From positions 6,072,001-6,136,000 of the forward strand of contig NZ_CP097484.1 of NCBI RefSeq assembly GCF_023546765.1: a stretch of 64,000 bases of DNA. The letters run 5' to 3'. Origin of the DNA: Methylobacterium tardum. Lineage in GTDB: Bacteria; Pseudomonadota; Alphaproteobacteria; Rhizobiales; Beijerinckiaceae. The notes below the pieces were generated by a model that searched no databases, was not told where the DNA came from, and saw only the letters and a program-made list of their open reading frames with translations. Shown here in pieces: positions 4,004 to 64,000 of this stretch (position 1 is the stretch's first letter; the number at the start of each line of letters is the position of its first letter). The position numbers and the translations under genes were made by a program.

Positions 4004-7000
4004 TCAGCGCTTCCCGCCGTCGCCGGCTTCGAGCTGCGCCTTGAGCGCGGCCAGCTTGGCGAAGGGCGAATCCGGATCCGGCGCCCGCTCCCGCCGCGGC
4101 GGCCGCTGATCGGGCCGCGGACCCGCATGGCGCTGCTCGGCACCGCGCTGATCGTCCCGGCGCTCCGGCCTTCCGCCCTCGAAGCGGTCGCGACGGGGGC
4201 CGCGATCCCGTCCCGGACGCGGTCCGCCGTCTCCGCCCTCGGCCGCCCGGCGGTGCTCCGGCCGGCCGCCCTCGGGACGTCCCTGTCCCGGGTGCTGACC
4301 CTGCTGGCCACCGTCGCGGCCGCGGCCGGCGCCGCGGGGACGGTTCTGCGGACGCTGATGGGCCGGGCGCTGATGGCGCTGCAGGCGCCATACCTCGATC
4401 TGCGGCACCTCTGCCGTCGGCTCGCCGTCCGGGGGCGCGGTTTCGGCCGCCGCCTCGGCGGTCACGTCGCCAGCCGCGTCGGCGCCGGCCTCGGCCGGCT
4501 CGGAAGCTGCCTCGCTCTCGGCCACGACGGGCGCCTCGGGCGCTTCGGCCGGCTGATCCACCTCGGCAGCGCCTTCCTCGGCCGGAGGCGTCTCCGCCGC
4601 CGGTTCCTCGACGGCCGCGATTTCGGTTTCCGGAGTTGGGATCTCGGCGGGGGGCTCCTCGGCTCCGCTCGCGGAGACCTCTTCCGCGGAGGCATGGACC
4701 TCCTCGGCGGAGCCTTCGCCGCGCTCGGCCGCGTCCGTGGAGGCCTCGTCGTCGGCCGGTTCGGCGGCATCCGCCTGCGCGGTGACCGCCTCATCGGAGG
4801 AGGCTTCGGCGGCCGCGGCCGGTACGGCCGGCGCGGTGGCGGCGGCCGGGACGAGCGGCACGGTTATGGCCGGGCCGGGGCGCGCCTCGGAATTGTAGCC
4901 GAGCGACTTCAGGATCGAGGCGAAATCCTCGCCCGAGCAGCCGACCAGGGAGGTCATGCCGACGGTGGCCACGAAGCCGTCGCCGTCGGCGGTGCCGTCC
5001 GGCGGGGCGCCCGGCGTGGTGCCGGGCCGGTAGGCGATCGCCGGGCGGATCAGGTCGGCGAGCCGCTCCAGGATGTCGACGCGCACGGCGCGCTCGCCGC
5101 TGACCCGGAAGCCGGCGGCGCGGTAGAGGCCCTTGGCGATCTCCCGATCGACCTTGATCGAGGTACGGCCGGAGCCGGCGAGATGCGCGATCTCGTCGAG
5201 GCCGCGCTGGTCGAGGCCGCCGTTGCGCAGGGCCCAGAGCTGGGCCGCGAGGGTGCGGGGCGCCGGCTTGAGCAGGGCCGGCAGGAAGATGTGATAGGCG
5301 CCGAACCGGACACCGTGGCGGCGCAGGGCGCCGCGGCCGTCCTGATCGAGGCTGCGCATCTCGTGCGCGACCTTCGAGCGCTCCAGCACGCCCAGCGCCT
5401 CGACCACCTGGTAGCCGATCCCCTTGGCGAGACCGGTGAGGTCGGCCGCGGTCTCGATCTCCATGAGCGGCCCGAGGAGGCGCACGATGGTGGCCTTCAG
5501 CCACGCGTCGAGGCGCGCTTCGACCTTCTCGCGATGGGCGCCGGTCAGGCTGTCGTCCGCCAGCAGACGGATCTGCGGGGCGAACAGCTTCTCGCCGGGG
5601 GTGAGCTTGGCGACGGGCGCGCCGGTCCAGCGGATCGTGCCGTCATGGGCGAGCACGAGGGTCGAATCGGCGGTGGCGCCGAACCGGTCGGCCCGCGCCT
5701 CGATCTCGCCGGCGAGCGCCTTCTCGGCGGCACTTCTCAGGGTCTTGGCTTCGTGCCCCTCAGCGCTGGCATCGGGAACGAACAGGAATCCGTGAAGGTG
5801 GCCGACATGCTGACCCTCGACGGTGACGTCACCGTCGGCGGTAATCTGGGCTTCGAGCATCGTGTTCTCTCTCAGGCGCCGCATCAGGACGCTTGTGCGC
5901 CGGTCGACGAAGCGGCTCGCGAGGCGTTCGTGCAGGGCGTCGGACAGCCTGTCCTCTACCCGACGCGTCTCGCCCTGCCAATGTTCTGGGTCGCGCAGCC
6001 AGTCGGGTCTGTTGGCGACGAACGTCCAGGTGCGTCCTTGGGCGATCCGGCGGGACAGGGTGTCGATGTCGCCGTCGGTGCGGTCGATCATCGCCACCTG
6101 CTCGGCGAACCACGTGTCGGGGATCCGCCCGGCCATGCCCTTCATGAGGAATCGGTAGAGCTGGGCCACGAGGTCGGCATGCACCTGCGGGTGGACCTTG
6201 CGGTAATCCGGCACGCCGCAGGTGTCCCAGAGCCGCCGAACCGTGGCGGCGCTCCGCGCCATGTCGCGGATGTCCTCCTCCTTCATCAGGATCTCGAGGG
6301 CCTGCTGGTCCTCGCCCATGGGGGCGCGGGTCAGGCCCGATTCGCGCGGGTGCTCGTCGAGGCTCGCCTGCAGCGCCTCCAGGTTGCCGAACGCGAGATC
6401 CGGATTGCGCCATTGCAGGATGCGCAACGGGTCGAAGTCGTGGCTCTCGAGGCGCTCCACCAGCTCGGGCTCGAAGGGCGGGCAGCGGCCGGTGGAGCCG
6501 AAGGTGCCGTCCGCGAGGTGCCGCCCGGCCCGGCCGGCAATCTGGCCCATCTCGGCGGGGGTGAGCTTGCGGAAGCGGGTGCCGTCGTACTTCCAGTTCG
6601 CCGCGAAGGCGACGTGGTCGACGTCGAGGTTGAGCCCCATCCCGACCGCGTCGGTGGCGACGAGGTAATCCACGTCGCCCGCCTGGTACATCTCGACCTG
6701 GGCGTTGCGCGTCCGGGGCGAGAGCGCGCCCAGCACCACCGCGGCGCCGCCGCGCTGGCGGCGGATCAGCTCGGCGATGGCGTAGACCTCCTCGGCCGAG
6801 AAGGCGACGATGGCGGTGCGGCGGGGCAGGCGCGAGAGCCGCTTCTCCCCCGCGAAGGTCAGCTGCGACAGCCGCGGCCGGGTGGTGGTGTGGACGTTCG
6901 GGATCAGGCTCTGGACCAGCGGCAGGATGGTCGAGGAGCCGATCAGCAGGGTCTCCTCCCGGCCGCGCACGTAGAGCAGGCGGTCGGTGAAGACGTGGCC

Positions 7001-52621: not shown

Positions 52622-53845
52622 TCACACCCCGTCCGGCGGCAGCGCTTCCGTGACCTGCACGCGGCGGTTGCCCGCAGCCTGGCCTGCCTCGTCGGCGGCG
52701 ACCTCGGTCTGAGCCGGCGTTTTGTCCAGGGCCTCGGCCACCGCCGCGACGCCCTTGTAGCGCGTCAGCCGCCGGTCGATCATGTCCTCGATCCGCCCGT
52801 GCAGTTCGGCCACGGTCAGGCTGCGGCGCTTGCCGCCGGCCTTCTCGGTGAACAGGCTGCGATTGGCCCGGGCCGCGCTGCGGAACTCCCGCCCCGCGAC
52901 CTCGTCGGGCCTCTCGGAGGAGAGCGACAGGAAGCGTCCGGCGCTGGCCGTGCCGAGGAAATGCGCGAGGTAGAGCTCGGTGGTGGAGAGGGCCCGACCG
53001 ACCCGCGCCTCGATCCGCTCGCGGTCGCGCTTGATCAGCTCGGCCGCCATCAGCGCCGCCACGCGCGGATCGTTGCGCAGGCCGAGGACCCGGGTGCGCA
53101 TCCCGGCCGTGACGGTGATTGCGGAGCCGCGGCCCTTCACGGCGGCGGCTTCGTTGGCGAGCCCGTAGCGGGCGCCGTAATCGCGGATCATCTCCAGCCA
53201 GGTGCGGGCGACGAACTGAAACAGGCCCTGCGCCGAGGAAGTCGCGGCCTTCGCGTCGGTGTCGAAGCTCGATTCCTTGTCGGCCAGCGCCATCATGTAG
53301 ACGGGATCGACACCAGCCTCGTCCGAGGCCTTCACGATCGTGTCGACCACCTTGCCCGGCACGCTGCGCTGGCCGAATCGGACGGCGGCCTCGCCCTGCT
53401 CCTGGGTCACGCGCGGCAGGGCGGCGAGGTTGTCCTGGATCAGCGCCGTGGTGGCCGGCTCCTGCTCCGGAACGGGCAGTCCGCTCCAGGCGGCGTAGGC
53501 TTCGGATGAGGCCTCGATCGGCGCGGCGTCCATCGCGGAGCGGGCGAGCGCCTGCGCGGCACGCGGGCTGGTGTCCACCCGGTCGTGAGCCTGTGCGGCG
53601 GGCGCGAAATAGGCCGGCGCGAAGGCCGCCTGCGGCAGGCCGAACCCGGCGATCAGGCCCAGGACCAGCGTTCCGGAGAGCCGGCGGATCCCATTCTGGC
53701 CTGTGCGGCGAAGTGACCGGCGCTCCGTTCCGCGTCCGGCCCGCGGCAGCCACGCCACGGTTTCATCCTCGATATGGCTCGCGGTCGGCGCGAGTCGGCT
53801 CACGTCGTCGGCGCAACGCGCCGGCTCCGGGAAAACCCCCATCAC
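52622..53845 (-). CDS. Lytic transglycosylase SLT-domain protein
   Basis: 407 residues from ATG at 53845. A hydrophobic segment at about 55-80 (SGTLVLGLIAGFGLPQAAFA) looks like a late signal peptide or anchor. The SLT-like catalytic part holds MMALADKESSFDTDAKAATS then SAQGLFQFVARTWLEMIRDY; the Glu in DKESSF is the probable catalytic acid. These enzymes cut peptidoglycan with formation of 1,6-anhydro ends. The C-terminal 100 residues contain a helical region (VAELHGRIEDMIDRRLTRYK). Confidence 0.88.
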   Translation of the reverse strand: MMGVFPEPARCADDVSRLAPTASHIEDETVAWLPRAGRGTERRSLRRTGQNGIRRLSGTLVLGLIAGFGLPQAAFAPAYFAPAAQAHDRVDTSPRAAQALARSAMDAAPIEASSEAYAAWSGLPVPEQEPATTALIQDNLAALPRVTQEQGEAAVRFGQRSVPGKVVDTIVKASDEAGVDPVYMMALADKESSFDTDAKAATSSAQGLFQFVARTWLEMIRDYGARYGLANEAAAVKGRGSAITVTAGMRTRVLGLRNDPRVAALMAAELIKRDRERIEARVGRALSTTELYLAHFLGTASAGRFLSLSSERPDEVAGREFRSAARANRSLFTEKAGGKRRSLTVAELHGRIEDMIDRRLTRYKGVAAVAEALDKTPAQTEVAADEAGQAAGNRRVQVTEALPPDGV

Positions 53846-54162: not shown

Positions 54163-55353
54163 ATGAGCATGCAGTCCGGTCGCCGCGTCGGTGTCGCGTT
54201 CGTTGGCATGGGGGGCGCCGTCGCCACCACCGCCATCGCCGGCATCGAGATGATCAAATCCGGCTCGAACCGGCTCGACGGACTGCCGCTCGCCGGCCTC
54301 TCCGTGGCGGGCACGGCCGATTACAAGGATCTCGTCTTCGGCGGCTGGGACCTGAACGGCGACGACCTCGCCTCGGCCGCGAGTGGCCACGGCGTGCTTT
54401 CGAAAGACGACATCGAGAACGGCGCCCAGGTCCTGAAGGGCATCACCCCCTGGCCGGCTGTCGGCAGCGCCAAGTTCTGCAAGAACATCGACGGCCAGAA
54501 CCGCATCGTCGCCAAGGACCACCGCGAGGCGGTCTCGGTGATCGCCAACGACCTCCGCCGCTTCCAGAAGGAGAGCAACCTCGGCGACGTGGTCGTGGTG
54601 AACCTCGCCTCCACGGAGCGCTGGCCCGACCTGAACGACCCGACCCTGAACTCGACCGCGGCCTTCGAGAAGGGGCTCGATTCGAGCGACGAGGCGATCT
54701 CGCCGGCGATGCTCTACGCCTACGCGGCGATCAAGAGCGGCATCCCCTACGCCAACTTTACCCCGAGCGTGGCCGCGGACGTCCCGGCACTCCTGGACCT
54801 CGCCAAGGAGCTGAACGTCCCGGTGGCCGGCAAGGACGGCAAGACCGGCCAGACCATGATGAAGACGGTGCTGGCCCCCGCTTTCAAGGCGCGCGCCCTG
54901 CACGTCGACGGCTGGTTCTCGACTAACATCCTCGGCAACCGCGACGGCCTGGCGCTGAACGACCCGAACTCGCTGCAGTCCAAGCTCAACACCAAGGGCA
55001 CGGTGCTCGACTCGATCCTCGGCTACCCGGTCGAGGACCACCTCGTGCACATCCACTATTACCGGCCGCGCGGCGACGACAAGGAAGCCTGGGACAACAT
55101 CGACGTCACCGGCTTCATGGGCCAGCGGATGCAGATCAAGGTGAACTTCCTCTGCAAGGACTCGATCCTGGCCGCCCCGCTGGTCATCGAGATCGCCCGC
55201 GTCCTCGACCTCGCCAACAAGCGCGGCGACGGCGGCGTGCAGGAGCAGCTCTCGACCTTCTTCAAGGCGCCGATGGTCAAAAACGGCCACGGGCCGGAGC
55301 ACGCCTTCGGCAAGCAGGAGAAGATGCTCCACGACTGGCTGGGCGTGCACTGA
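54163..55353 (+). CDS. ino1: Inositol-3-phosphate synthase
   Basis: 396 residues from ATG at 54163. The NAD-binding motif VGVAFVGMGGAVATTAIAG opens the protein. Family blocks follow: VVVVNLASTERWPDLNDPTL, YANFTPSVAADVPALLDLAK, AGKDGKTGQTMMKTVLAPAF (catalytic lysines), GWFSTNILGNRDGLALNDPN, and CKDSILAAPLVIEIARVLDL. The enzyme converts glucose 6-phosphate to inositol 1/3-phosphate by an internal NAD redox cycle. Inositol is rare in bacteria outside actinobacteria, so this gene implies a dedicated inositol product. It is the first gene of a plus-strand cluster. Confidence 0.95.
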   Translation: MSMQSGRRVGVAFVGMGGAVATTAIAGIEMIKSGSNRLDGLPLAGLSVAGTADYKDLVFGGWDLNGDDLASAASGHGVLSKDDIENGAQVLKGITPWPAVGSAKFCKNIDGQNRIVAKDHREAVSVIANDLRRFQKESNLGDVVVVNLASTERWPDLNDPTLNSTAAFEKGLDSSDEAISPAMLYAYAAIKSGIPYANFTPSVAADVPALLDLAKELNVPVAGKDGKTGQTMMKTVLAPAFKARALHVDGWFSTNILGNRDGLALNDPNSLQSKLNTKGTVLDSILGYPVEDHLVHIHYYRPRGDDKEAWDNIDVTGFMGQRMQIKVNFLCKDSILAAPLVIEIARVLDLANKRGDGGVQEQLSTFFKAPMVKNGHGPEHAFGKQEKMLHDWLGVH

Positions 55354-55377
55354 ACGGGCGCTGACGCACCACAATGT

Positions 55378-55410
55378 ACGCTCCTCCCCCCACGGGGGAG
55401 GAGGCGCGCG
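55378..55410 (+). terminator. Hairpin between ino1 and the HD-like gene (repeat family D, short)
   Basis: CTCCTCCCCC (55381-55390) pairs exactly with GGGGGAGGAG (55394-55403), then GCGCGCGTTTCG. It could reduce read-through from ino1 to the next gene. The same words occur in the large inverted repeat near 61267-61374. Confidence 0.55.
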
Positions 55411-55502
55411 TTTCGACCTTCGTCGGTTGGCGAGCCGGAAGGGTCCTTGGGGCGTTCGGTGAAGACCTCACCCGAACTGCTGCACGCCGTCTGAAAGAAA
55501 CG

Positions 55503-56432
55503 ATGCCGAGCGAGAACCACCCGTCCCCCTCCGGCGCCGCCGCGCCGGAGGCGTTGCGCGACCTTCTGGTCGAGATGAACGACCTCAAGCGCGTCCGCTC
55601 GGCGGGCCGCCCGGGGTCGATCGCCGAGCGGCTGTTCGCGCAGGGATGGGGACTCCTCACCGGCGGCGCCGCGCCCGATGACGTCGCCCTCGACATCACC
55701 GCGACCACCCTCGCGGCGACACGCCTCTGCGACCTCGACGCGGCCTTCCTGACCGCGGCGGGGCTCTCCGACGCGGACGCCTCCACGGTGCTGGTGGCGG
55801 GCTTCGACGCCGTCACCAGAGAGCTCGATCCGGAGCTCCGCGAGCGCTTGCGCGCGCGGCTCGCGCCGCGTCCGGCCGGCCGGCCCGGGCCGCTGCCGGG
55901 CTTCGTCGGCGCCCTGGCGCAGCAGCCGCGGGCGGGCGTCACCTGCCCCGGCCGCGCCCGGATCCTGCTGGAGCCGCCAGAGAACCACGCCGAGCACTGC
56001 CTGATCGTGGCGGTCTACGGCGTCTGCCTCAGCCCGTTCTACCGGGCCGATCCCGGCACCGTGTTCCTGGCCGCGATGGCCCACCACTTCCACAACGCCG
56101 CGATGCCGGATGCCGGCTTTACTGGCGAGATGCTGCTCGGCGATCATCTGGGCCCGATCATGGCGACCACCACCGCCTGGGCGCTCAATGAACTCGGCGA
56201 ACCCCTGCGCGGCGAGGTCGAGCGCGCCCGCGCGGTCCTGCCCGACGACGCCACCGCCGAGGGCCGCGCCTTCCACGCGGCCGACTGCATCGACCGGGTC
56301 CTGCAGATCGCCCAGCATCTCCGCGGGGCCTCGACCACGATGGGGATGGTGCTCGGCGAGTGGGAGCTGGTCCATGCCGGCCCGGTGAAGGGCTTCCACG
56401 ATCGTGTCCTCGCCGACATGCGCATCCCTTGA
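55503..56432 (+). CDS. HD-domain-like protein with altered metal motif
   Basis: 309 residues from ATG at 55503. The C-terminal half resembles an HD phosphohydrolase: an early histidine in PPENHAEHCLIVAVYGV, the central element LAAMAHHFHNAAMPDAGF, where HD is replaced by HH, and a late Asp/His (EMLLGDHLGPIMA). The N-terminal 180 residues are helical with no known domain. Classical HD enzymes remove phosphate from nucleotides or small molecules; here the metal set may differ or the fold may serve another reaction. It lies between ino1 and a methyltransferase and is probably part of the same pathway. A role on inositol phosphates is only a guess. Confidence 0.65.
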   Translation: MPSENHPSPSGAAAPEALRDLLVEMNDLKRVRSAGRPGSIAERLFAQGWGLLTGGAAPDDVALDITATTLAATRLCDLDAAFLTAAGLSDADASTVLVAGFDAVTRELDPELRERLRARLAPRPAGRPGPLPGFVGALAQQPRAGVTCPGRARILLEPPENHAEHCLIVAVYGVCLSPFYRADPGTVFLAAMAHHFHNAAMPDAGFTGEMLLGDHLGPIMATTTAWALNELGEPLRGEVERARAVLPDDATAEGRAFHAADCIDRVLQIAQHLRGASTTMGMVLGEWELVHAGPVKGFHDRVLADMRIP

Positions 56433-56476
56433 TCGCCGGACCCGGTCGCCCATCTGCCCGGGCGGCCCCGAGAACC

Positions 56477-57658
56477 ATGATCCCGTTCGAACTCAGATCG
56501 CCGGACACCGGCAACCCGCTGAAGGCCGACGGCCCGCACGCCCTGCGCGACGCGGAGACCGGCGCGCGCTGGCCCGTGATCGACGGCATCCCGTACCTGC
56601 GGATCAACCGCGCGGCCCTGGTCGAGCGGGTGCTCGCCCATCTCGATGCCGGCGAGCCCGACGAGGCGCTGGCCGCCCTGCTGGTCGATCAAGACGATTG
56701 GTGGAACGGGCCGCCCGCCGATCCCGCCGGGATCATCCGCCTGATCAAGGAGCGCCGCACCGCGACCCTGCGCGACGCGGTCGAACTCCTCGGCTGGGGC
56801 CGCGTCGGCGACTACTTCCTGCACCGCTGGAGCGACCCGACCTTCCTGGCTGGCCTGTCTCTCCTGGAAGCGCACTGGAACGAGCCCGTTTGCGTCTTCG
56901 AATTCGCCTGCGGCATCGGCCACTACCTGCGGGAGCTGCAGCGGCGCGGCTGCAAGGTCGCTGGGGCCGACGTGGTCTTCGCCAAGCTCTGGGTGGCGCG
57001 CCACTGGGTCGTGGCCGAGAAGGCCCAGCTCGTCTGCTTCGACGCCGGCTCAGCCCACTGGCCGATCGCCGGGGCTCCGGTCGACCTCGTCGTGTGCAAC
57101 GACGCCTTCTACTTCCTCGGCGACAAGGCGGTGCTGCTCGAGTGCCTCCGCCAGAATGCCGGCGACGACGGCTGGCTGGCGCTGAGCCACATCCACAACC
57201 GCGACTGCCCGGGCTTCTCGGCCGGACGGGCGGTGACGGCCGAGGAGATCGCCGAGCTGTTTCCCGACGCCCTGGTGTACGACGACGCGGAGTTGACCCG
57301 GGCGCTCGTCGAGGCGCGGGCGCCGGGCCCGCAGGAGCCGGCGGCCCTGCGCACCTGCGAGGCGTTCTCGGTGGTGTGCGGCCCCGGCATGCGCCCGGCG
57401 CCGCGCGCGCTTGTCGACGGCCTGACCCTGCCGAAGCCGAGGACCGTGCTGCGGCTCAACCCGCTCTACGCGCCAGAAGGCGACGGTTACGTCATCCGCT
57501 GGCCCTCGGAGCGCTACGAGGCGGAATACGGCCCCCGCGCCACCTACCCGCTGCACTCGCCGGGACCCGAGACGCTGACCTTCGGCGAAAACCTCGATGC
57601 GTCGGAGACGCAGCGCGTGCGCGTACGCGAATTCGTCGACCTCCCGGAGCGGTGGTGA
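56477..57658 (+). CDS. SAM-dependent methyltransferase with Trm112-like N terminus
   Basis: 393 residues from ATG at 56477. The first 50 residues (MIPFELRSPDTGNPLKADGP ... PVIDGIPYLR) resemble the Trm112/zinc-ribbon-like head found on many natural-product methyltransferases, although the cysteines are absent. The Rossmann motif is VCVFEFACGIGHYLRELQRR near residue 140, then KVAGADVVFAKLWVARHWV and VDLVVCNDAFYFLGDKAVL. A 100-residue C-terminal extension is unassigned. Its stop overlaps the start of the oxidoreductase (TGATG), so both are translated together. The acceptor is unknown. Confidence 0.82.
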   Translation: MIPFELRSPDTGNPLKADGPHALRDAETGARWPVIDGIPYLRINRAALVERVLAHLDAGEPDEALAALLVDQDDWWNGPPADPAGIIRLIKERRTATLRDAVELLGWGRVGDYFLHRWSDPTFLAGLSLLEAHWNEPVCVFEFACGIGHYLRELQRRGCKVAGADVVFAKLWVARHWVVAEKAQLVCFDAGSAHWPIAGAPVDLVVCNDAFYFLGDKAVLLECLRQNAGDDGWLALSHIHNRDCPGFSAGRAVTAEEIAELFPDALVYDDAELTRALVEARAPGPQEPAALRTCEAFSVVCGPGMRPAPRALVDGLTLPKPRTVLRLNPLYAPEGDGYVIRWPSERYEAEYGPRATYPLHSPGPETLTFGENLDASETQRVRVREFVDLPERW

Positions 57659-58653
57659 TGGACGCCGTCGGCTGGGGCATCGTCGGCTACGGCTGGGTCG
57701 CCCGCGACTTCATGGAGCCGGGCATCCGCGCCGCCGGGCACCGGCTGGTGGCGGTCAGCGATCCGAATCCGGAGAGCCGCGCGGCCGCCGAGCGGGCGGG
57801 CGCCCGCGGTCACGCCGACCTTGCCGCCCTGATCGCCGAGCCCGAGGTCGAGGCGGTCTACGTGGCGACGCCGAACCACCTCCACCGCATCGCCGTCGAG
57901 GCGCTGGCCGCCGCCGGCAAGGCGATCCTGTGCGAGAAGCCCATGGCGGCGACGCTCGGGGACGCCGAGGCCATGGTCCGCGCGGTCGAGTCGCAAAACA
58001 TCTTCTACGGGACGGCCTTCGACCAGCGGCATCACCCGGCCCACCGGACGATCCGCGCTCAGGTCGAGGCCGGCCGGCTCGGCACCGTGACGGCGGTGCG
58101 GATCGTCTACGCCTGCTGGCTCGGCCGAGACTGGTCGGAGGCCGGGCAGCCCAACTGGCGGATCGACGCCGCCCAGGCCGGCGGCGGCGCCCTGATGGAC
58201 CTCGCCCCGCACGGGCTCGACCTCGTGGACTTCCTGGTGGGTGAGCCGATCACGGATCTCGCGGCGCTCACGCAGTCCCGCGTGCAGGACTACGCCGTCG
58301 GCGACGGCGCCCTGCTGATCGGGCGGACCGCGGGCGGTGCCCTGGCGAGCCTGCACGTCGCCTACAATTGCCCGGACGCGCTGCCCCGCCGCCGCCTGGA
58401 GGTGGTCGGCACGAAGGGCCTGCTGGTCGCCGAGAACACGATGGGCCAGACGGCCGGCGGGTCGCTGACCTTCATAGACGGCGCCAGCGGGCGCGCCGAA
58501 CCGCTCGCCTTCGACGCCGACAGCTCGCCCTTCACCGAGCAGGTGCGCGCCTTCGGCTCGGCCCTGCGCCGGCCCGAGGAGCGGGCGGCGTACTCGGCGT
58601 CCCGAGACCTTCACACGATGCGGCTCGTCGCCCGCGCCTACGGGCAGGGGTAG
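57658..58653 (+). CDS. Gfo/Idh/MocA family NAD(P)-dependent oxidoreductase
   Basis: 331 residues from ATG at 57658 (GTG codons at 57652 and 57655 are alternatives). The NAD motif is WGIVGYGWVARDFMEPGI. VYVATPNHLHRIAVEALAA precedes the conserved E-K-P (ILCEKPMAATLGDAEAM). Catalytic residues of the sugar/inositol dehydrogenases are probably in GGGALMDLAPHGLDLVDFLV (D-x-x-x-H). Family members oxidise a ring hydroxyl of sugars or inositol. Beside ino1 and an IolE/IolI-like isomerase, an inositol or inositol-glycoside substrate is a reasonable guess. Confidence 0.9.
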   Translation: MDAVGWGIVGYGWVARDFMEPGIRAAGHRLVAVSDPNPESRAAAERAGARGHADLAALIAEPEVEAVYVATPNHLHRIAVEALAAAGKAILCEKPMAATLGDAEAMVRAVESQNIFYGTAFDQRHHPAHRTIRAQVEAGRLGTVTAVRIVYACWLGRDWSEAGQPNWRIDAAQAGGGALMDLAPHGLDLVDFLVGEPITDLAALTQSRVQDYAVGDGALLIGRTAGGALASLHVAYNCPDALPRRRLEVVGTKGLLVAENTMGQTAGGSLTFIDGASGRAEPLAFDADSSPFTEQVRAFGSALRRPEERAAYSASRDLHTMRLVARAYGQG

Positions 58654-58710
58654 CAACCGCCGGACAGGATGACACAACACCGAGCCGCGACCCGATCCAC
58701 CTCACCCGCG

Positions 58711-58726
58711 CCCTCATCCTGAGGTG
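58711..58726. repeat. Fragment of repeat family A
   Basis: CCCTCATCCTGAGGTG matches the outer arm of the copies near 9920 and 636. It lies between the oxidoreductase and YcaO genes, which argues that the YcaO start is downstream of it. Confidence 0.6.
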
Positions 58727-58779
58727 GGTGGATGGGGGCAGGGGCATGGCGCACGGCTCGCGGCAGACGGGAACACGAC

Positions 58780-60381
58780 TTGACCCAAGCAGACGCCTTC
58801 CACGACCAGGACGACCGCGCCCGCCACGAGCGGATCAAGGCGCCGCGACCCTACCGCTTCGGGGCCAAGCGGCCGATCGAGGGCCTGCCCGAGACCCTGC
58901 CCGACGCGGTCAAGGCCTATCTCGACGTCCTGCCGGAAGGCCGCATCGTCGGCTTCCCGCTGGCACCGCTTGATCGCACCGGCATCCCGGTCTGGTTCGT
59001 GGCCCTGTTCCTCGGCGACCCGTTCTTCGTGGGCGCAATGCCGTCGGGCATCGGCTACGGCGCCACCGACGACGAGGCGCTGATCGGCGCCGTGGCGGAG
59101 ATCGCCGAGAATTTGATGCCGTCACTCGCGGTGCTGCCGCGGGCCAAGGAGCGGGCGAGCTACGCCGACCTCGTGCGCGTCTACGGCACCAAATCCGTCG
59201 CCGACCCGCTGACCCTCTGCCTCCCGGCCGGCTCTCCGGTCGGCCGCGACACGGTCCTCGAATGGACACCGTCCGTGCGGCACGCCACGGGCGAGATCGT
59301 GCTGATGCCGCTCGACATCGCGGCCACCGACTATTTCGAGCTGTCGGAGGGCTACAAGCCCTTCACCAACCTGATCACCAACGGGCTCGGCGCAGGGCCC
59401 GACGTGCCCTTCGCCCTGGGCCACGGCGTGCTGGAACTGCTGCAGCGGGACGGCAACGGCCTGCTGTTCCGGGCCCTCGACCAGGGCGTGATGCTCGACC
59501 TCGACGGCATCGGCCCGGAGAACGCCGCGATGCTGGCCCGGCTGAAGGAGCTCGGGATCCGCGCCCTGCCGAAATTCGCCACCGACCAGTTCGGGCTGAC
59601 CAACCTCTACGTCGTCGGCTACGACGAGGATCCGGCGCGGACCCCGGCACCGATCGCGCTCTCGGCCTGCGGCGAGGCCTGCGATCCGGACCGGGAGCGG
59701 GCCCTGCGCAAGGCGCTGCTGGAGTTCCAGGCGGCGCGGGTGCGCAAGACCTTCGGGCACGGTCCCCTCGACATGGCCGCCACGGTGACGCCGCCCGGCT
59801 ACGTCGACGCGTTCATCCAGAAGGCGCTCCCCAGCCTGGACTTGGAGGAGAGCCGCGCTCTCCAGGCGATGCTCGAATGGATCGAGATGCCGGCGGCCGA
59901 CCTGCGCGGCGTGCTGGCCGACACGGTCTATTCCGAGCGCAGCACCAAGCGGTTCGCCGAGCTGCCCTCGACCCCGGCCGCCGACGGCCATGCCCGGGGG
60001 AAGATCGCCTGTGACCGGCTGCTGGAGGCCGGGTTCGATGTCCTCTACGTCGACTGCACCCCATCCGGCGGCGGGGTCGGCGTCGTGAAGGCGATCGTGC
60101 CGGGGCTCGAGGTCGAGACCATGAGCTACTACCGGATCGGCGAGCGCAACACGAAGAAGCTCCTCGACCGCGATCACCCGCTGATCCGCTTCGGCACCGA
60201 GAGCGAGACCCTGCGCCCGGTGCGGCTCACGCCGGAGGCCCTGGAGCGGTTCGGCGGCCAGCCGCTGTTCGACACGGCCCTGGCCGAGACGATCGTCGGT
60301 CGGCACTATCCGCTGTACCGCGAGCCGGAATCGCACCATGCGCCGTTCCGCCTCGCCCAACGGCAGGGGAGGGCGGCGTGA
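58780..60381 (+). CDS. YcaO-fold ATP-dependent cyclodehydratase-like enzyme
   Basis: 533 residues from TTG at 58780 (LTQADAFHDQDDRARHE). An ATG at 58732 would add 16 residues but overlaps repeat-derived sequence. YcaO features: YGATDDEALIGAVAEIAENL; GYKPFTNLITNGLGAGPDVP then FALGHGVLELLQRDGNGL, the region holding ATP-binding acidic residues; PKFATDQFGLTNLYVVGYDE; and ACGEACDPDRERALRKALLE then FQAARVRKTFGHG. YcaO enzymes activate amide backbones with ATP, giving azoline rings, thioamides or amidines. No E1-like, TfuA, dehydrogenase or precursor peptide gene is seen in this cluster. The stop overlaps the next gene's GTG by 4 bases. Confidence 0.85.
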   Translation: MTQADAFHDQDDRARHERIKAPRPYRFGAKRPIEGLPETLPDAVKAYLDVLPEGRIVGFPLAPLDRTGIPVWFVALFLGDPFFVGAMPSGIGYGATDDEALIGAVAEIAENLMPSLAVLPRAKERASYADLVRVYGTKSVADPLTLCLPAGSPVGRDTVLEWTPSVRHATGEIVLMPLDIAATDYFELSEGYKPFTNLITNGLGAGPDVPFALGHGVLELLQRDGNGLLFRALDQGVMLDLDGIGPENAAMLARLKELGIRALPKFATDQFGLTNLYVVGYDEDPARTPAPIALSACGEACDPDRERALRKALLEFQAARVRKTFGHGPLDMAATVTPPGYVDAFIQKALPSLDLEESRALQAMLEWIEMPAADLRGVLADTVYSERSTKRFAELPSTPAADGHARGKIACDRLLEAGFDVLYVDCTPSGGGVGVVKAIVPGLEVETMSYYRIGERNTKKLLDRDHPLIRFGTESETLRPVRLTPEALERFGGQPLFDTALAETIVGRHYPLYREPESHHAPFRLAQRQGRAA

Positions 60382-61250
60382 CGCTCCGGTTCGCCTACAA
60401 CACCAACGGCGCGGCCAACCACCGCCTCGGCGACGCGCTCCATCTGATCAAGGCGGCGGGCTACGATGGCGTGGCCCTGACGCTCGACATCCACCACCTC
60501 GATCCGTTCGCCGAGACCTGGGCGGCCGAGGCCGGCCGGGTGGCGAGTCTCTTGGAGAAGCTGGAGCTGACCTGCGTCATCGAGACCGGCGCCCGCTTCC
60601 TGCTCGATCCCAACGCCAAGCACGAGCCGACGCTGGTGACGGCCGACGCCGCGGGCCGCGCCCGCCGGGTCGGCTTCCTCAAGCGGGCCGTCGAGATCGG
60701 CGCCATGCTCTCCGCCGAGGCGGTGTCGTTCTGGGCCGGCGTGCCCAAGCCCGGCGTCGATCATGGCGAGGCCCGGCGCTGGCTGGTCGAGGGGCTGCAC
60801 GAGGTCGCGACCTTCGCCACCGAATCCGGGGTCGTGCCGTGTCTGGAGCCGGAGCCCGGCATGCTGATCGAGACGCTCGGCGATTATGCGGCCCTCGACG
60901 TGCCGGGGCTCGCGCTCGCCCTCGACACCGGCCACTGCCTCGTCACGGGCGAGCGCGAGCCCGCGGCGGCCGTGCGGGAATTCGCCGACCGGATCGGCAC
61001 TGTGGCGATCGAGGATATGAAGCGCGGCAGTCACATCCACCTGCCCTTCGGCGAGGGCGACATGGACGTGCCGGGCGTGTTGGAGGCGCTGGAAGAGGTC
61101 GGCTTCGGCAAGCTGATCTGCGTCGAGCTGTCCCGCGAGAGCCACCGGGCCGACGTGATGATCCCTCAGGCGCTGGACTACCTCCGTGGCTGCCGGCGCC
61201 CTGGCCCGGTGCTGGCGGGCGAGCAGGAGACGCGGCGGCAATGGCCGTGA
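60378..61250 (+). CDS. TIM-barrel sugar-phosphate isomerase/epimerase (IolE/IolI/EboE-like)
   Basis: 290 residues from GTG at 60378. The xylose-isomerase-like TIM barrel is clear: LRFAYNTNGAANHRLGDALH, then AAGYDGVALTLDIHHLDPFA. Metal ligands are likely the Glu in VVPCLEPEPGMLIETLGDY, the Asp/His in ALALDTGHCLVTG, the IEDMKRGSHIHLPFGEGDMD segment, and CVELSRESHRAD. Related enzymes include inosose dehydratase/isomerase (IolE, IolI) and EboE. Coupled to the YcaO gene. The substrate is probably a cyclitol or ketose. Confidence 0.85.
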   Translation: MTLRFAYNTNGAANHRLGDALHLIKAAGYDGVALTLDIHHLDPFAETWAAEAGRVASLLEKLELTCVIETGARFLLDPNAKHEPTLVTADAAGRARRVGFLKRAVEIGAMLSAEAVSFWAGVPKPGVDHGEARRWLVEGLHEVATFATESGVVPCLEPEPGMLIETLGDYAALDVPGLALALDTGHCLVTGEREPAAAVREFADRIGTVAIEDMKRGSHIHLPFGEGDMDVPGVLEALEEVGFGKLICVELSRESHRADVMIPQALDYLRGCRRPGPVLAGEQETRRQWP

Positions 61251-61261
61251 GGATGGCGGCC

Positions 61262-61378
61262 CGCCTCTCCTCCCCCTTGCGGGGAGGAGCCGGAGGTGGG
61301 GGTGGTGCAGAATTGAGCGATCGGGTGCCTCCTGCACCACCCCCACCTCTACCCCTCCCCGCAAGGGGGAGGGGATTC
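61262..61378. repeat. Large inverted repeat, family D
   Basis: The arms at 61267-61310 and 61332-61374 are nearly complementary over 43 bases (for example GGAGGTGGGGGTGGTGCAG against CTGCACCACCCCCACCT), separated by about 21 bases. It is the longest hairpin in the window and lies inside the cluster, between the isomerase and glycosyltransferase genes. A short relative is at 55381-55403. Confidence 0.85.
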
Positions 61379-61410
61379 CGACCGGCCCGCACTCCGCATC
61401 GCGTGCAACG

Positions 61411-62649
61411 ATGAGAATCCTCTTCCTCAGCCGTCGCTACTTCCCGGCGATATCGGGCATGAGCGTCTACGCGCAGAACCTGCTGCGCGAGCTGGTCGAT
61501 GCCGGCCACGACGTGACGATGATCTCGCAGTACCGGGGCGACGCCTTCGGCACCCGCGTCTACGGCGGCGGGCCGCCGCCGCCGGTGCCGGGCGTGCGGG
61601 TGATCGGCCTGGAGCAGCTCGGCGAGCAGACCTCCGGCGATTTCGAGCGCGACATCGACACGATGGTGGACGCCATCGGCCGAGAGCATGCCGAAAAGCC
61701 CTTCGACGTCCTGCACGCGCAGTACGGCTACCCGACCGGCTGGGCGGTGCTGCTCGCGGCGCGCAAGCTCGGGGTGCCGAGCGTCGTCTCGATCCAGGGC
61801 GGCGACGGTCACTGGGTCGGATCGTGCTGCGAGACGCACCGCGTCGCCATGTGCGAGGTCCTGGCCCACGCCAACGCGCTGCTGATCGGCGGCGCCTCCT
61901 TCGTGGACGAGGTCTGCGAGCGGCTGGGATCGGATCCCGCCCGCTTCACCATCGTGCCCGGCGCGGTGGACACCGACCGCTTCGCGCAAGGGACGCCCGA
62001 CGGGCTGCCCGCGCCTCATGCCGGGCCGGTGCGGCTGTTCTACCATGGCCGGGTCGACCGCCGGAAAGGCGTGCTCGACTTCATCAACGCCCTGGCGATC
62101 CTGCGCGAGCAGGGCACGCCCTTCGCCGCAACGATCTCGGGCATCGGACCGGATGTGGATCCGGCCCGGGCACTCGCCGCGGAGCTGGCCTTCTCGGATC
62201 GCGAGATCGCCTTCACGGGCTACGCCGAATACGGCTCCGTGCCCGACTTGTACCGGCGCGCCGACGTGTTCGTCTCGCCGACCTACGCGGAGGGGTTTTC
62301 CAACACGATCCTGGAGGCGCTTGCGGCCGGGCTCGCCACGGTGTCGTGCCACGCGGTCGGCGTCTCGGACTGCCTGCGCGACGGCGAGAATGGGCTGCTG
62401 GTCGATCCCGGCGACGTGCCCGCGCAGGCCGCCGCGCTCACCCGGGTGATCACGGATGCGGGCCTGCGCCGCCGCCTGGCGACCGCCGGCCTGGAGGAGT
62501 GCAGGCGGGTCTATTCCTGGCATGCTGTCGGGCGGCAGATCATGGACGTCTACGCCCGGGTGCGCGACGAACGGCCCGCCACCGACTTCGCGACGGACCT
62601 GCCCCACGATCCGACCTGCCGGTTCCGCGCCGAGCCGCATCTGCTCTGA
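61411..62649 (+). CDS. GT4-family glycosyltransferase
   Basis: 412 residues from ATG at 61411. The N-terminal Rossmann domain opens RILFLSRRYFPAISGMSVYA with the glycine-rich loop; VSIQGGDGHWVG and VPGAVDTDRFAQGTPDG follow. The C-terminal donor domain holds LFYHGRVDRRKGVLDFINAL and the E-x7-E element EGFSNTILEALAAGLATVSC. These are retaining GT-B enzymes using nucleotide sugars. MshA, which glycosylates inositol phosphate with GlcNAc in mycothiol synthesis, is in this family, as are many unrelated enzymes. The gene pairs with a PIG-L gene downstream, as mshA with mshB. Confidence 0.9.
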   Translation: MRILFLSRRYFPAISGMSVYAQNLLRELVDAGHDVTMISQYRGDAFGTRVYGGGPPPPVPGVRVIGLEQLGEQTSGDFERDIDTMVDAIGREHAEKPFDVLHAQYGYPTGWAVLLAARKLGVPSVVSIQGGDGHWVGSCCETHRVAMCEVLAHANALLIGGASFVDEVCERLGSDPARFTIVPGAVDTDRFAQGTPDGLPAPHAGPVRLFYHGRVDRRKGVLDFINALAILREQGTPFAATISGIGPDVDPARALAAELAFSDREIAFTGYAEYGSVPDLYRRADVFVSPTYAEGFSNTILEALAAGLATVSCHAVGVSDCLRDGENGLLVDPGDVPAQAAALTRVITDAGLRRRLATAGLEECRRVYSWHAVGRQIMDVYARVRDERPATDFATDLPHDPTCRFRAEPHLL

Positions 62650-62753
62650 AGGCGCTTCAGTCTTGGATATCCAACCCGCGGCCTCCGCTGCGCTCCGGCG
62701 CCTTAGGGTGCGGTGACGGGTTGGAGCTCGCACCAGCCGATAGACCCTGAACC

Positions 62754-63512
62754 ATGCCCACCGCGCTCGCCCTCTCGCCCCATCTCGGCGATGCGGCCTT
62801 CTCCTGCGGCGGCCTTCTGGCGAGCCTCGCGCAGGCCGGTTGGCGCGTGGTGATGGCGACCCTGTTCACCGGCAGCGTCGCCGACCCGCAAGGCTTCGCG
62901 CTGGCCTGCCAGCTCGACAAGGGTCTGGCGCCAGATGTCGACTACATGGCTCTGCGCCGGGATGAGGATGTTCGCGCCGCCGCCGCGCTCGGCATCGCGC
63001 CGCCCGTGCACCTGCCGTTCCGGGAGGCGCCGCACCGGGGCTACGGCTCGGCGCCGGAGCTTTTTTCGGACACCCGCGCCGACGACGGCATCGCGGCCGA
63101 GCTCGCACCCGCGCTCGCGGGCCTGATCGCCGCGGAGAGCCCCGATCTCCTCCTCGCGCCCCAGGCGATCGGCGGCCATGTCGATCACGTGCAGGTCGTC
63201 CGGGCGCTCCGAAGCCTGGACGTCGCGGCGCCGATCCTGTGGTGGCGCGACTTCCCCTATACGGTGCGGGAGGACGCGCCGAAGGAGCCCCTCGTCGGCC
63301 TGTTCGCCACCCTCGCCGAGGCGAAGATGCGCCTGGATCCGGACGCGCAGGCCCGGAAGCGCGCGGCCTGCGCAGCCTATGCCAGCCAGATCGGCTTCCA
63401 GTTCGGCGGCGAGGCCGGACTGAACGCGCGCCTGGCCCGCGAGGCGGGGATCGAGCGCTTCCGCCTCTCGGGCCGGCTCGGCGCGGCGATCCCGGGTCTC
63501 GATGAAGGCTGA
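62754..63512 (+). CDS. PIG-L (LmbE/MshB-like) deacetylase-fold protein with altered active site
   Basis: 252 residues from ATG at 62754. The N-terminal motif reads ALSPHLGDAAFSCGGLLASL; in active relatives it is S-P-H-L-D-D-A or A-H-P-D-D-E. His10 and Asp13, the zinc ligands, are kept, and the third ligand is probably in AIGGHVDHVQVVRAL. The first Asp of the pair, the proposed catalytic base, is Gly12. Members remove acetyl from N-acetylglucosaminyl compounds (MshB, BshB, PIG-L). Next to a GT4 and ino1, a glucosaminyl-inositol substrate is plausible, but activity must be doubted. The stop overlaps the next gene by 11 bases. Confidence 0.87.
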   Translation: MPTALALSPHLGDAAFSCGGLLASLAQAGWRVVMATLFTGSVADPQGFALACQLDKGLAPDVDYMALRRDEDVRAAAALGIAPPVHLPFREAPHRGYGSAPELFSDTRADDGIAAELAPALAGLIAAESPDLLLAPQAIGGHVDHVQVVRALRSLDVAAPILWWRDFPYTVREDAPKEPLVGLFATLAEAKMRLDPDAQARKRAACAAYASQIGFQFGGEAGLNARLAREAGIERFRLSGRLGAAIPGLDEG

Positions 63513-64000
63513 GCCGCAGGCGCCGAAGGCGCTGGCCGATCCCGATGCCCTCGCGGCGCGCCGCGCCCTGATCGGGGCGCCGCACATCGCGCCGATCCGG
63601 GCGCTCGCGGACCGGATCGCGGCGGAACGCGGGGCGCCGGTCCCCGTGCCGGACCCCCTGGACGGCGGCGTCGGGGCGCGGATGCTCCTCCTCCTCGAGA
63701 CGCCCGGCCCGGCCGTGCTGCGCACCGGCTTCGTCACCCGCGACAGCGCGAACGGCACCGCCGCCAACCTGTTCCGCTTCCTCGCCGAGGCCAGCATCGC
63801 CCGGGCCGACACGCTGATCTGGAATGTCGTGCCCTGGCTGATTCACGAAGCGGGCGCCCTCAACCGCGCCCCCCGCCGGGCCGAGGTCGCGGCCGCCGCG
63901 CCGTATCTGGCCCCGCTCCTCGACCTGCTGCCGCGCCTAGCCGTCGCGGTGCTGGCCGGCCGCTTCGCCGGCGAGGCGGCGCCGGCTGTCGCGGCGATCC
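63502..64000 (+). CDS. Uracil-DNA-glycosylase-fold protein (3' end outside window)
   Basis: 166 visible residues from ATG at 63502, overlapping the PIG-L stop. MLLLLETPGPAVLRTGFVTR resembles the first UDG motif, and NGTAANLFRFLAEASIARAD then TLIWNVVPWLIHEAG the middle of a UDG domain (N-V-V-P-W). The UDG superfamily removes damaged bases from DNA. Position as the last gene of a biosynthetic cluster is unusual; it may be a separate repair gene translated by coupling, or a UDG-fold protein with another task. The remainder, including the catalytic C-terminal His motif, lies outside the window. Confidence 0.75.
   Translation, partial: MKAEPQAPKALADPDALAARRALIGAPHIAPIRALADRIAAERGAPVPVPDPLDGGVGARMLLLLETPGPAVLRTGFVTRDSANGTAANLFRFLAEASIARADTLIWNVVPWLIHEAGALNRAPRRAEVAAAAPYLAPLLDLLPRLAVAVLAGRFAGEAAPAVAAI

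Follow-up and report, generated by a model that had tools for sequence, protein, structure and literature searches.

A conserved gene cluster of Methylobacterium tardum with an inositol-based amino-sugar compound, possibly a sunscreen, as its probable product

The stretch of DNA analysed here (the window) comprises 64,000 nucleotides of Methylobacterium tardum (contig NZ_CP097484.1, positions 6,072,001 to 6,136,000), a bacterium whose genome of 6.94 Mb contains a single YcaO match. Nine open reading frames were identified on the plus strand towards the end of the window, their families being named from Pfam and NCBIfam matches. The first is ino1 (54163-55353), predicted to encode a divergent, dedicated paralogue of myo-inositol-1-phosphate synthase (PF07994, 212 bits; PF01658, 120 bits). 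It is followed by genes for an HD-domain phosphohydrolase-like protein, a candidate pathway phosphatase (55503-56432, with a possible alternative earlier ATG at 55374), a SAM methyltransferase (56477-57658; PF13489, 39 bits), a Gfo/Idh/MocA oxidoreductase (57658-58653; PF01408 and PF22725) and a YcaO-family enzyme, ATP-dependent by family (58780-60381, with a possible earlier ATG at 58732). The remaining four genes encode an AP_endonuc_2 TIM barrel of the sugar isomerase/epimerase/dehydratase type (60378-61250; PF01261, 111 bits), a GT4 glycosyltransferase recognised from its NCBIfam and PDB relatives, with MshA among the nearer ones of known structure (61411-62649), a PIG-L family deacetylase (62754-63512; PF02585, 62 bits) and a UDG-superfamily protein (63502-64131; PF03167, 41 bits over the whole protein). 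The original prediction, made from the letters of the window, had named the same nine genes and families; all nine are open and the domain matches agree. Its coupled starts were likewise located, namely TGATG at the methyltransferase/Gfo junction (57656-57660), GTGA at the YcaO/TIM junction (60378-60381) and an overlap of 11 bases between the PIG-L and UDG genes (63502-63512). Its HD label stands in part: the predicted model of the HD-like protein resembles HD phosphohydrolases, but its Pfam HD_3 score (16.2 bits) is below the cut-off of 22.5 bits. The ninth gene, whose UDG fold agrees with its family match, ends beyond the window end at 64000.

These nine genes form a real unit. When 84,980 species genomes were scanned with a YcaO alignment, 249 stretches were confirmed, and the best 80 of these were kept (169 left out). 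The order ino1-HD-methyltransferase-Gfo-YcaO-TIM-GT4-PIG-L is identical, on the same strand, in 74 of these 80 loci, and the UDG gene comes next after PIG-L in 70 of the 74 complete eight-gene loci. Five of the six remaining loci are stretches of 4.7-12.5 kb in which the contig ends inside the cluster. The flanks are also conserved in 71-73 of the 80 loci: a transglycosylase gene lies upstream (52622-53845 of the window, minus strand), and genes for an LPG_synthase_TM protein and a sensor histidine kinase lie downstream (L032, 1188-3666). The nearest named relatives of the host YcaO are those of Methylobacterium species and, since nearly all 80 loci belong to Methylobacterium or Methylorubrum, the more distant occurrences weigh more. 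Five more distant genomes (L148-L152) were found, four with all eight genes, including Lichenibacterium dinghuense (L152) and a Skermanella-like genome (L148) whose YcaO is 92% identical to that of Skermanella sp. TT6; in Lichenihabitans psoromatis (L151) ino1 is the one gene missing. The cluster is located on plasmids in Roseomonas haemaphysalidis and in Hymenobacter volaticus (Bacteroidota), with no methyltransferase match in the Hymenobacter plasmid copy (L166). Thus, the ordered gene set that the original prediction proposed to look for in other genomes is found there, most of it also across phyla, and the eight to ten enzyme genes move as a group among bacteria from leaves, lichens and air that belong to different phyla. 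Relatives of the YcaO protein 51-57% identical to the Skermanella-like copy were identified in myxobacteria (Archangium, Corallococcus, Cystobacter), Planctomycetes (Tundrisphaera, Gemmataceae) and Burkholderiaceae.

Some copies are interrupted, owing to sequencing errors or decay. Each of the following is found in two frames: ino1 and HD in L149 (G035; 4200-6359), HD in the Skermanella-like L148 (G543; 4436-5313) and Gfo and GT4 of Hymenobacter (L166, 10072-11120 and 14341-15572). An in-frame stop codon is present in the TIM-barrel stretch of Methylobacterium variabile (L098, 11551-12420).

Co-occurrence was assessed in 199 genomes at family level, 385 genomes at class level and 72,556 plasmid records. 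The YcaO gene was identified at at least 50% identity in 22 of the 199 family genomes (eight more having weak matches only), among them all 10 genus members examined. Cluster-type ino1 (at least 58% identity) is present in 20 of the 199, 19 of them YcaO-positive, with weak matches of a second type only in 35 more, and HD is present in 21, 20 of them YcaO-positive. Fisher tests, uncorrected for shared descent, gave p = 1.9e-22 for YcaO with ino1 and 3.3e-24 for YcaO with HD. In the mismatched genomes G145, G149 and G186 a contig end cuts the cluster, and G086 is without cluster ino1 and retains a second-type Ino1. Cluster-type ino1 and the YcaO gene, whose co-occurrence the original prediction proposed to test, thus go together, 19 of 22 YcaO genomes sharing both. 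Among the class genomes, HD and strong YcaO matches coincide in the same 3, weak YcaO matches occurring in 17 others; in the plasmid records HD was found in 4, which are the 4 that, among the YcaO matches listed (30 of 100 records), have this YcaO at 46-50% identity over at least 97% of the query. Taken with the conserved order and the occurrence in several phyla, this co-occurrence supports one shared pathway well.

Three features escaped the original prediction: a partner gene for an MBL-fold protein, the resemblance to the Ino1/TIM pair found in ebo-type operons and DNA-repair genes that recur nearby. The MBL-fold protein has a CxxC-rich stretch at its N-terminus (seen by eye) and a weak rubredoxin-like match below cut-off. 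Roseomonas, Hymenobacter, L148 and L150 carry its gene between Gfo and YcaO; in L149 and L151 it is found close to the cluster. The M. tardum homologue is unlinked to the cluster (719021-719848); it adjoins two genes resembling nitrile hydratase beta subunits (L168, 268-2484). Besides the host genome, a search of 34 chosen genomes identified the gene at at least 37% identity in all 21 that are YcaO-positive, as against none of 13 others, six of which have matches of 24-29%; G145, one of the 13, which has ino1, HD, methyltransferase and the beginning of Gfo at a contig end, had no MBL match. In G186 the gene is in two pieces. The UDG-fold gene was identified at at least 50% identity in 17 of the 199 family genomes, 16 of them YcaO-positive; it adjoins the Skermanella-like cluster, and by coordinates the genomes G127, G160 and G186 have it next to the MBL gene. 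The MBL-fold protein is taken here as part of the pathway and the UDG-fold protein as co-selected.

Residues were compared in alignments of 14 or 15 chosen rows each, and for YcaO in 20 of 22 strong genes (L012, with an internal stop, and L023, which is cut, were left out). The Gfo protein, which scores highest in NCBIfam against the model of inositol 2-dehydrogenase IolG (121 of 355 bits), has E93-K94-P95, D181 and H185 invariant (15 rows). In the TIM barrel E157, D183, H186, H221 and E250 are invariant, as are K219, E294 and E302 in GT4 (15 rows each). The whole YcaO domain and fold are present in the YcaO protein, and the nearest solved structures to the PIG-L protein are glycopeptide pseudoaglycone deacetylases. 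Because the host genome has a second, different Ino1 elsewhere (G000:C1:1954724; about 31% identical), the cluster ino1 looks like a dedicated copy.

The likely product of the cluster is an amino-sugar compound based on inositol. The gene families, their conserved order, their co-occurrence and the link with the MBL and UDG genes are observed, whereas the individual reactions, their sequence and the product are inferred here from gene families, and for a glucosaminyl-cyclitol product in which YcaO exchanges an oxygen we estimate a probability of about 0.55. Ino1 would convert glucose-6-phosphate to inositol phosphate, from which the HD protein would strip the phosphate; Gfo would then oxidise one hydroxyl group of the ring to a ketone, which the TIM barrel, a metal-dependent enzyme, would isomerise or dehydrate. 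GT4 is predicted to attach an N-acetylhexosamine, most likely N-acetylglucosamine (GlcNAc), and PIG-L to free the amine of the added sugar. YcaO may phosphorylate a carbonyl-type oxygen (amide or vinylogous acid) of the small molecule and thereby allow its exchange for nitrogen or sulphur. The MBL-fold protein probably takes part at or close to this step, and the methyltransferase would be optional tailoring. Judged from their families, Ino1, Gfo, TIM, GT4 and PIG-L are explained most economically by the modified cyclitol glycoside put forward earlier, which, according to the original prediction, might carry an ATP-activated amide, thioamide or amidine.

Several observations weigh against this proposal. 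No cluster protein reached an NCBIfam equivalog cut-off, and substrates are thus not given by these matches. The best NCBIfam model for GT4 is EpsE (97.7 bits), MshA being only fifth (76 bits), and comparison of its profile with the PDB gave Tll1590 as the best match and MshA as the third. The host's own PIG-L may be weak owing to the motif HLGD (G12 at codon 12), which reads HLDD in all 72 readable relatives among the 80 loci, at the position of the catalytic base in MshB. YcaO is closest to enzymes with protein or peptide substrates. Shared descent accounts for part of the synteny within the genus. The gaps between matches in Methylobacterium-type loci, in which small frames were not searched, reach 310 bases (Gfo-YcaO), 417 bases (TIM-GT4) and 829 bases (GT4-PIG-L). 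Finally, the sixth locus without the complete order, that of Microvirga arabica (L112), has YcaO (61%) alone within a stretch of 20.9 kb, the only part of that genome searched. This stretch apart, the outcome that was to refute a shared pathway, with homologues scattered and YcaO usually found without ino1, GT4 and PIG-L, was not observed for this YcaO clade.

Parts of the cluster resemble known systems. Homologues of Ino1 (35-37% identity) and of the TIM barrel (46-49%) are neighbours in three Streptomyces plasmid operons of the ebo type with Ino1, two of which adjoin a ScyD/ScyE-family gene. An ebo-like region of a Halocatena plasmid, which has UbiA and TatD genes, likewise encodes both (TIM, 33%), and the pair occurs alone on unannotated Gemmatirosa and Embleya plasmids. 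None of the nine window genes encodes the UbiA prenyltransferase (EboC), EboA or TatD (EboB) of the ebo operon; GT4, PIG-L, Gfo, HD and YcaO are there instead. The description of the ebo cluster in Nostoc assigns it a role in scytonemin export, and cyclitol formation was suggested there by its authors (PMC6282210, Klicki et al. 2018). Because Ino1 and TIM are also neighbours in ebo-type operons, they look like a reusable cyclitol module, after which the present pathway would continue with sugar transfer and a YcaO reaction and not with prenylation. In the pseudodisaccharide steps of aminoglycoside synthesis, GT4 and PIG-L enzymes add GlcNAc to a cyclitol and then deacetylate it; these two steps would be common to both systems, whereas the nine genes include no aminotransferase and do include YcaO.

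Mycothiol and bacillithiol share the use of GT4 and a PIG-L deacetylase, and the first half of mycothiol synthesis follows the same scheme with Ino1 added. The product could be a mycothiol-like, low-molecular-weight thiol or redox buffer, in which GlcN-inositol would acquire a sulphur group through YcaO with no Cys ligase, and the top phmmer match of GT4 in the PDB, an inositol-3-phosphate glycosyltransferase, favours such a product. We consider it unlikely, as Ino1, GT4 and PIG-L score far under the equivalog cut-offs of mycothiol (mycothiol_INO1, 44.7 of 638 bits; MshA, 76 of 462.5 bits) and bacillithiol (BshA, 63.7 of 273.7 bits; BshB1, 25.4 of 182.5 bits), and a search limited to the nine genes found neither a Cys ligase of the MshC type nor an acetyltransferase. 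Moreover, YcaO, Gfo and TIM are additional to both thiol pathways, and the thiol explanation leaves Gfo and TIM without a role. An inositol glycolipid or envelope sugar, with the GT4/PIG-L product lipid-carried or exported with the aid of the downstream LPG_synthase_TM protein, would agree with the presence of that gene (PF03706) in 72 of 80 loci, with PimA (2gej) among the nearest solved structures of GT4 and with a GT2 gene next to the cluster in Roseomonas. This is improbable to a similar degree: LPG_synthase_TM, used as a query, was without a match in the examined stretches of L148-L152 and of the Roseomonas and Hymenobacter plasmids, no lipid-attaching enzyme belongs to the conserved core, and YcaO would be left unexplained.

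The fold and the whole YcaO domain are common to the window protein, the M. jannaschii YcaO MJ1094, enzymes of the McrA thioamidation type and TOMM cyclodehydratases, and YcaO could act on a protein or peptide (forming a thioamide or azoline) while sharing an operon with a separate sugar pathway. In the Roseomonas operon, because the genes overlap one another from HD to the last gene, there is no room between them for a precursor peptide gene of the TOMM/LAP kind, and therefore a small-molecule or housekeeping substrate is favoured; the Methylobacterium-type gaps mentioned above are the part to which this does not extend. YcaO also scores under the SagD (80.5 of 219.25 bits) and McrA-type (48.6 of 365 bits) cut-offs and co-occurs tightly with Ino1 and HD. 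A TfuA/E1-like gene is neither among the nine genes nor annotated in the Roseomonas operon, which has the conserved MBL-fold gene instead. A protein or peptide substrate is unlikely as well. That the genes are chance neighbours with unrelated roles is very improbable: synteny inside one genus alone proves little, but largely the same set recurs in several genera of Alphaproteobacteria and in one member of another phylum, the Bacteroidota, partly on plasmids.

As to its function, the glucosaminyl-cyclitol-type product is possibly a sunscreen. Mycosporine-like amino acids are built on a cyclitol core by a cyclase, an O-methyltransferase and ATP-grasp enzymes that add nitrogen at the expense of ATP. 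Core, methylation and ATP-driven nitrogen addition would be analogous here; in contrast, the cyclase and ATP-grasp enzymes of that pathway are not among the nine genes and the ring would derive from inositol. The UVA absorbers of Methylobacterium are reportedly polar and, among leaf isolates, confined to this genus (work attributed to Yoshida, 2017). We tentatively suggest, from the gene content, that the cluster might make such polar UVA-absorbing compounds (methylobamine or its kin) by a route convergent with that of mycosporines. Inositol would be oxidised and dehydrated to a cyclohexenone-type ring, and the amine freed by PIG-L would attack the vinylogous acid phosphorylated by YcaO, yielding a conjugated nitrogen chromophore. 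Two publications describe UV-absorbing compounds of methylobacteria, including methylobamine (PMC9664959), and the presence of UVA absorbers in them (PMC12573535). The island would move between sunlit bacteria of different phyla, accompanied in some of them by genes for UV or DNA repair (UDG, spore photoproduct lyase, UvdE). Beside the Roseomonas cluster lie two genes with a spore photoproduct lyase annotation, one of them confirmed with Pfam; two more such genes and one for UvdE are found no farther than 8 kb from the isolated Microvirga YcaO, with a DHH protein nearby (L112, 2630-11509). This suggestion is weakened by the six YcaO-positive genomes without a UDG gene at at least 50% identity and by the flanks of L149-L152, in which no repair gene was seen (by eye, in the first 70 residues of the frames; those of L150 are poorly called). 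In the literature, searched with subscription papers mostly outside its reach, none of the titles listed was on genes for Methylobacterium UVA absorbers, methylobamine or sunscreen clusters, and no paper was found joining YcaO with a Methylobacterium inositol or GT/PIG-L gene cluster or with mycosporine, or UV-absorbing compounds with a Hymenobacter gene cluster; the titles retrieved for YcaO with inositol and glycosyltransferase, and for inositol-phosphate synthase with Methylobacterium, were unrelated.

To our knowledge, YcaO enzymes have been studied almost solely on peptides and proteins. If the proposed glucosaminyl-cyclitol pathway is true, YcaO chemistry would be widened from peptides to free small molecules, in at least two phyla.

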